Shown here in pieces: positions 20,143-20,565 of a DNA stretch of 64,000 nucleotides. Source of the DNA: Psococerastis gibbosa (taxonomy: Eukaryota > Arthropoda > Insecta > Psocodea > Psocidae); contig OZ020484.1 in assembly GCA_963971405.1 (NCBI GenBank), positions 31,456,770 to 31,520,769 on the forward strand, in the 5' to 3' direction. Under the pieces are notes generated by a model. The model did not search any database and had not been told where the DNA came from. It was given only the letters and a program-made list of their open reading frames with translations. The position numbers were made by a program, and so were the translations under genes. Position 1 is the first letter of the stretch, and each line of letters starts with the position of its first letter.

Positions 20143-20358
20143 GACTATAAAGTTTTTTTTCATGTTAACCGTAACTTAATAAACTACCGGGGGATTGATG
20201 TCAGCACCCTTAAAGAGTTAGCTAGACGATGGCTACCAGAGTTGTTCAATGGTTGGCATAAAGAGAGCCCACACCAAGCATTGCCCGACATTCACGAGTC
20301 GATTGCTGAGCTCAGCTACTACCGCCAACAATGGTTGCGGCCCAAGCAAGATCCGTAG
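20143..20358 (+). pseudogene. orn: Bacterial-type oligoribonuclease, C-terminal fragment
   Basis: The open frame encodes about 58 residues matching the C-terminal end of oligoribonuclease (DEDDh 3'-5' exoribonuclease degrading 2-5-nt RNAs). Visible are [16 protein letters not shown] from about 20185, then H-Q-A-L-x-D-I-x-E-S-I-A-E-L-x-Y-Y-R, and TAG at 20356-20358. The H and following D belong to the ExoIII motif. The family is about 180 residues long; the N-terminal two thirds, with the DxE motif, is missing, so no enzyme is made. Residues before about 20182 do not fit the family. The frame is closer to bacterial Orn than to animal REXO2 as I know them, and it lies just before a bacterial-type tRNA-Gly, as in E. 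coli. A transferred, truncated fragment is the best explanation. Confidence 0.8.
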
Positions 20359-20404
20359 TCATGCTAAAATTGGGGGGGGGGGGCAGTTTTTTAGAGAAAA
20401 CCTC

Positions 20405-20438
20405 TTGTATTGTCGCTACAGTGACGTATAATGCGCAG
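20405..20438 (+). promoter_or_regulatory. Bacterial sigma70-like promoter with GC discriminator
   Basis: TTGTAT (20405-20410), a 16-base spacer and a consensus TATAAT (20427-20432), directly followed by GCGC. A GC-rich discriminator is typical of bacterial stable-RNA promoters. It points at the tRNA-Gly about 60 bases downstream. In the present animal-DNA context it is presumably a fossil. Confidence 0.45.
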
Positions 20439-20493
20439 GCATCTGAGGTTACTGATAATTCATGAGTCATTCAGTGATCATTTTCTATCCAAT

Positions 20494-20565
20494 GCGGGAA
20501 TAGCTCAGTGGTAGAGCACAACCTTGCCAAGGTTGGGGTCGCGAGTTCGAGCCTCGGTTCAACTT
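20494..20565 (+). tRNA. Bacterial-type tRNA-Gly (GCC), acceptor 3' strand replaced
   Basis: GCGGGAA opens the acceptor stem, then the D arm (GCTC ... GAGC), the anticodon arm (CAACC TTGCCAA GGTTG, anticodon GCC) and the T arm (GCGAG TTCGAGC CTCGG). The first 63 or so bases follow the bacterial tRNA-Gly(GCC) pattern closely and differ from the eukaryotic one. After 20557 the sequence should return as TTCCCGC, but reads TTCAACT. Only three of seven acceptor pairs remain (plus one possible G-T wobble), and the last T-stem pair is lost. It continues into 'CAACTTGGTATGGCGGCC', resembling the edge of dispersed repeat family E. Probably a non-functional bacterial tRNA cut at a junction; a SINE head recruited from such a tRNA is the alternative. 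Confidence 0.75.

Follow-up and report, generated by a model that had tools for sequence, protein, structure and literature searches.

A single stretch of bacterial DNA, 374 bases long (positions 20183-20556), lies in a chromosome of the barkfly Psococerastis gibbosa, and very probably it is chromosomal DNA of an endosymbiont of the Symbiodolus lineage which was joined into the germline genome of the insect. The window (the whole stretch of DNA analysed, 64,000 nucleotides) contains 0 N bases, and host DNA flanks the block on both sides along an unbroken contig, with junctions at about 31476951 and 31477325 of contig C1, to which the window belongs. The block begins with the last 58 codons and the stop of orn, continues with a spacer of 135 bases that holds a tRNA promoter, and ends in a truncated tRNA-Gly(GCC); on the plus strand the order is minisatellite, LINE-like tail, bacterial block and host DNA, as follows:

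19554-20091, no strand: host minisatellite, 152-bp unit, 3.5 copies, stopping where the LINE-like tail begins
20092-20182, minus strand: 3' end of a 5'-truncated LINE-like repeat with a (TTCA)n tail, its exact start ambiguous between 20092 and 20095
20183-20358, plus strand: 3' end of bacterial orn, 58 codons and stop; the junction falls in the first codon, which starts at 20182, and the stop is at 20356-20358
20359-20493, plus strand: bacterial spacer with tRNA promoter, TATAAT at 20427-20432
20494-20556, plus strand: tRNA-Gly(GCC) truncated in the 3' acceptor strand, with the same letters up to 20556 as the tRNA of locus L050
20557-20590, plus strand: short host sequence with a single other host copy, on contig C14 (locus L091), 94% over 36 bp at 20552-20587

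The initial annotation had described the 3' end of a bacterial orn and a tRNA-Gly(GCC) embedded in animal DNA between 20143 and 20565, a reading borne out here (E 7.7e-27 for the peptide and 42.5 bits with the Rfam tRNA model) with corrected borders: its start was 40 bases too early, 20143-20182 being host LINE-like repeat, the identity to bacterial sequence stops at 20556, or at 20560 at most, and the stop and the tRNA start (20494) are separated by 135 bases rather than 136. Its host minisatellite and dispersed-repeat flanks stood as to host DNA on both sides, but the immediate left neighbour is the LINE-like tail and the right side is mostly single copy.

A search of 5.8 billion proteins with the 58-residue peptide gave 3980 matches. 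The best of them, far beyond chance, was P0001 (88% identity over the whole fragment), the oligoribonuclease (Orn) of Candidatus Symbiodolus clandestinus; the database check proposed for the peptide thus returned a bacterial Orn, with 51 of 58 residues identical. Among the matches listed (120 of the 3980), P0001 was followed by two unnamed proteins having 75% and 74% identity over 91% of the fragment. Local alignment gave 40/53 for both P0002 and the protein of genome G023, and 39/53 for P0003. With Pfam, RNase_T was matched at its positions 117-163 of 164 (E 2.3e-4), the 22.2 bits obtained being slightly below the cut-off of 24; a full-length exonuclease domain is not found, 58 of about 184 residues being present.

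REXO2 is the animal homologue of Orn, and the block could accordingly be a piece of host REXO2 or a REXO2 pseudogene, a reading that we regard as next to impossible. When P0001 was searched against the whole assembly (409,210,807 bases in 68 contigs), it matched the window and one REXO2-like exon of the host on the same chromosome (C1:7893946), and no other bacterial orn was found by this search. That exon shares 25 of 48 residues with the fragment, as compared with 51 of 58 for Symbiodolus, and both the tRNA and the promoter are bacterial. A best match to animal REXO2 had been named in the initial annotation as one result that would overturn a bacterial origin; the host gene does exist, elsewhere on C1, and it is not the best match of the fragment.

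The analysis of the tRNA gave 42.5 bits with the Rfam model at 20498-20560, whereas the three intact tRNAs of L050 score 68.3 bits each. The gene is devoid of the 3' acceptor strand and CCA, so that no complete acceptor stem is present, and ARAGORN called no tRNA in the block. The tRNA-Gly(GCC) of G023 has the same short D-loop and is identical at 65 of 68 positions over 20493-20560. The bacterial-type tRNA-Gly of the initial annotation is real, but the gene is truncated. Moreover, the stretch CGTATAATGCGCAGGCA found upstream of the G023 tRNA is identical (17/17) to 20425-20441, lying 52 bases before the tRNA in the block and 46 in G023. A scan for sigma-70 promoters and terminators found 0, so the promoter call rests on this identity with G023. 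The spacer also includes a run of about 12 G (at about 20373-20384), which may reflect growth after the insertion or a read error.

Gene order was examined in orn loci, of which 2 out of 100 end within 200 bp of orn; one set of 80 loci comprised the best 80 of 572 confirmed. A tRNA-Gly(GCC) was located 3' of orn, on the same strand and at no more than 1.5 kb, in 34 out of 38 loci from Enterobacterales. The order search contributed 20 loci, 15 of which had it, and it was absent from all of the remaining 42 loci. In 49 loci the gap from orn to the tRNA ranged from 101 to 1059 bp, the 135 bp of the window falling inside this range. The order orn followed by tRNA-Gly, which had been called bacterial, is thus specific to Enterobacterales among the loci examined; in E. 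coli orn is followed by glyV-glyX-glyY. Order, strand, spacing and promoter all indicate one collinear bacterial piece.

In G023 about 20.7 kb separate the two genes, which share a strand (locus L161, G023:C1:73500-93499). Of the 26 frames listed in this orn-tRNA stretch and around orn, 10 were examined with Pfam and proved to be two integrase-core proteins, two IS110 transposases, a resolvase and a YhgA-like transposase, together with TrbL/VirB6, another type IV secretion protein, a helix-turn-helix protein and an ankyrin-repeat protein. We infer that mobile DNA may have been inserted in G023 between formerly adjacent orn and tRNA-Gly genes, and that in the donor, in contrast to G023, the two genes were probably adjacent.

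A tree was built with 49 rows that we picked out of about 220 Orn sequences. The fragment, which fills 31% of the columns, grouped with P0001 with support values of 99/90, and both fell in a clade with P0002 and P0003 (Symbiodolus) supported by 100/100, in a bootstrap that was not fully settled. Genome G023 (1.7 Mb) gave the best match to P0001 (79%) among the matches listed from 394 genomes, 354 of which had a match; these genomes were an even draw from a larger order, that of G001, the genome of L050, which is titled Enterobacterales. G023 is the sole member of its own family among the genomes examined, and its Orn suggests that it belongs in the Symbiodolus group. The initial annotation had proposed a transfer from a gammaproteobacterial associate, which is the best reading of the block, and the Orn tree, the tRNA and the promoter narrow the likely donor to the Symbiodolus lineage, the closest Orn found being that of Ca. 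Symbiodolus clandestinus.

A different Enterobacterales bacterium, outside the Symbiodolus lineage, would be a distinctly improbable donor. The assignment is carried by 58 residues and a conserved tRNA, and the tRNA of L050, from a metagenome-assembled genome titled Enterobacterales, agrees letter by letter up to 20556; however, the Orn of L050 is 62% identical to P0001, the promoter stretch is common to the block and G023, and the support values of the Orn tree place the fragment with Symbiodolus. E. coli was rejected as the donor, since 0 of 5378 matched records cover 80% of the query and the 5 listed match the tRNA alone. Carriage by a phage or a plasmid was likewise rejected: one place covering 80% of the query was found in 0 of 227 and 0 of 225 matched records, respectively, and the 15 rows listed in each search all match the tRNA part.

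An assembly-wide search located the bacterial block once, within the 53.6-Mb contig C1. Its GC content is 49.5%, compared to 36.2% in the right flank. The segment 20561-21060 of this flank matches itself alone in the assembly, and the right-hand host DNA is single copy apart from its first ~30 bases. When we looked for the minisatellite resuming to the right of the block, the score obtained was 17, under the 95% level (22) of 300 shuffles.

Some other features of the host DNA in the window may be mentioned. A possible small exon at 21062-21113 (plus strand) is preceded by AG and followed by GTGAGT, with a 17-residue open frame recognized by eye; if it is real the bacterial block may sit in an intron, and no host gene was found for this candidate. 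A Gypsy-type retrotransposon occupies 32184-36898 (minus strand); its 1087-aa pol frame combines domains for RT, RNase H and integrase, and a second, gag-like frame contains DUF7041. The end of a non-LTR retrotransposon frame, with RNase H and zf-RVT, is at 23326-23913 (minus strand).

A chimeric molecule, formed by PCR in the ULI library, or a wrong assembly join could also place bacterial letters inside host DNA, and the HiFi library was indeed PCR-amplified by the ULI protocol (PMC12559846). Such an artefact, which we judge improbable, needs two junctions 374 bp apart in a 53.6-Mb contig, with a mean read of about 9.4 kb and about 55x (from figures given in PMC12559846), and would leave unexplained why the block stops where a LINE copy is truncated. 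Bacterial 16S was, moreover, absent among the candidates scored, in an assembly that had been decontaminated (PMC12559846; 409.21 Mb as published, 98.8% of it in 10 chromosomes). In this search RF00177 gave six matches, all on contig C19, which we take to be host ribosomal DNA; as 5 of 2667 first-look candidates were scored, a bacterial 16S is not fully excluded. A search of the assembly with SecA of G023, run without a positive control, found nothing. Because the assembly was decontaminated, a missing symbiont contig does not mean that the animal was free of infection.

The left neighbour of the block belongs to a LINE-like family with at least 1006 first-look candidates in the assembly, 40 of which were scored. 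In 29 other copies the end carrying (TGAA)n is constant, give or take a few to some tens of bases of tail, whereas the opposite end falls anywhere from 82 to 427 bp; one fixed tail side with a variable other end is the look of 5'-truncated LINE insertions. The copy in the window is off consensus at 4 of 84 sites, and the other 29 copies at 0 to 8.1%. The bacterial DNA starts where the homology of this copy stops. At the right junction (20557-20562) the identity with G023 and L050 ends at 20556, or at most at 20560, given that TTC at 20558-20560 is common to the tRNA and the host.

The outer borders of LINE plus insert both display TTCAA (20090-20094 and 20558-20562), a pair that could be a short target-site duplication or microhomology, although as a signal it is weak; the left one overlaps the start of the tail. 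Direct repeats of at least 5 bp (5-8 bp) were observed at the ends of 10 of the 29 family copies versus 11% among 2000 mismatched pairs; it is thus probable that this family generates short duplications. In the window the repeat measures 4 bp by script and 5 by eye, lengths reached (at least 4 and at least 5) by 34% and 11% of the mismatched pairs, and by 17/29 and 7/29 when the left flank of the window was paired with the right ends of the 29 other copies as a control. The repeat of the window fits a LINE insertion, yet it is no better than the controls; being at control level and overlapping the tail, it leaves a LINE-coupled route possible and not more.

Regarding the mode of entry, intracellular bacteria residing in the ovary or the germ line would supply a DNA fragment, which would be used as filler in the repair of a double-strand break by end joining, the same process that yields nuclear mitochondrial inserts, and its left end would be joined at the 5'-truncation point of the LINE-like copy. 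Joining at the truncated edge leaves two routes: a newly inserting LINE caught the fragment at its open 5' end, or the break arose at this point in an older LINE copy. The first of these, a sub-version of germline capture whose odds overlap with it, in which the fragment was ligated to the 5' end of the LINE-like copy in the course of target-primed insertion and both pieces arrived in one event, is put forward tentatively, at somewhat less than an even chance. The coincidence of the bacterial start with the end of LINE homology speaks for it, as do the junction being at the variable end of the family, the TTCAA at both outer borders and the duplications seen in the family at large; against it, the repeat in the window is within the range of both controls, TTCAA overlaps the tail start, and a break in an older LINE copy yields the same structure.

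Template switches occur at the 5' end of LINEs, and the position of the junction would also suit an RNA-mediated chimera, in which the LINE reverse transcriptase switched from LINE RNA to a bacterial transcript. Nevertheless, the sense strand of the LINE is the minus strand while orn and the tRNA are on the plus strand, which would require an antisense RNA spanning orn, promoter and tRNA as the template; on account of this orientation the template switch was rejected, as a very improbable route. Direct capture of Symbiodolus-lineage DNA is the reading we retain, the assignment to that lineage being based on the 58 residues (31% of the tree columns) together with the tRNA and the promoter.

The nuclear genome of P. 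gibbosa also carries pieces of mitochondrial DNA. The mitochondrial contig (C68) encodes a COX1 with 98% identity to that of Psococerastis albimaculata and 97% to a second cluster from Psocidae. Searched with COX1, the assembly yielded 43 matches, of which all but one (42) lay outside C68, and 26 of those 42 were over the family cut-off. Seven loci compared with the mitochondrial contig were 80-98% identical to it; they represent six inserts because two of the loci overlap. One insert (L154, C2, about 28.022 Mb) consists of two separate mitochondrial pieces of 221 and 120 bp placed end to end, and a large one (L148 and L149, C14, about 11.085 Mb) is about 97% identical to the mitochondrial DNA over about 4 kb in one locus. 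The LINE-like family adjoins the mitochondrial inserts in 0 of the 7 loci, its nearest match being about 1.1 kb away. Capture of short cytoplasmic DNA is therefore common in this genome, and a symbiont fragment would be unsurprising once the symbiont was in the germ line.

The fragment encodes neither a working Orn nor a tRNA that could be matured, and is most likely inert. A functional tRNA was discarded on the basis of the missing ARAGORN call, the broken acceptor stem and a predicted fold that is no better than shuffles (z -0.40, versus -2.19 and -2.09 for the intact tRNAs of G023 and L050). It could be argued that the insert serves the barkfly through a peptide, its 58-codon frame being free of stops, or through a Pol III RNA from the internal A and B boxes of the tRNA, given that motifs resembling both remain at 20501 and 20545 (by the commonly used motif patterns). 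The Pol III transcript is conceivable but unsupported, and a function of either kind seems highly unlikely in a single-copy insert with 58 codons of a ~184-codon gene, a lost acceptor stem and such a fold. As far as is visible no new working gene was gained by the insect, and the block is probably a fossil without function, left by an earlier infection.

Symbiodolus is a recently described bacterium that lives inside insect cells, is abundant in ovaries and is thought to be vertically transmitted (PMC11322605). Six host orders are named in that paper, Psocodea not among them, and its main text holds no words beginning with psoc and mentions neither lice nor barklice. The word Psocodea was not found in the ten papers searched that name Symbiodolus, and no report of Symbiodolus in Psocodea was found there; the passages of this literature that we examined do not mention transfer to a host genome, which is said of those passages and not of everything in print. 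Transfer from symbiont to insect is of a known kind; the Symbiodolus donor, the Psocodea host and the position at a LINE edge are new to us. A molecular fossil recording both that Symbiodolus-lineage bacteria once lived in the barkfly germ line and that their DNA entered via the opened 5' end of an inserting LINE may be what is preserved here, a combined claim we hold with rather low confidence. If reads confirm the junctions, the record of symbiont DNA in insect chromosomes gains a donor (Symbiodolus) and a host order (Psocodea), together with a sequence-level trace of an infection otherwise invisible in the assembly, and the position at the truncation point makes a specific route of capture testable across related barkflies.

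Compared to known systems, the block resembles the region of Enterobacterales genomes that holds orn and tRNA-Gly(GCC) (in E. coli, glyV-glyX-glyY) in gene order, strand and a gap within the range observed, and differs in that only the end of orn and a single, truncated tRNA are present, set in animal DNA. Compared as protein alone, it shares with the Orn of Ca. Symbiodolus clandestinus 51 of 58 residues, including the identical last four (KQDP), and departs from it by seven substitutions. With the nuclear mitochondrial inserts of P. gibbosa, 80-98% identical to their source and in one case made of two pieces, it has in common that short pieces of cytoplasmic DNA were taken up, although its source is a bacterial symbiont and this LINE-like family does not lie beside those inserts in the seven loci. 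Transfers from Wolbachia to insect nuclei have placed DNA of an ovary-borne intracellular symbiont in insect chromosomes, mostly as inert fragments, and are alike in source, target and outcome; in the present case, unlike those, the donor is an Enterobacterales bacterium that is probably of the Symbiodolus lineage, the host is a barkfly, and the 374 bp lie at the edge of a LINE copy.
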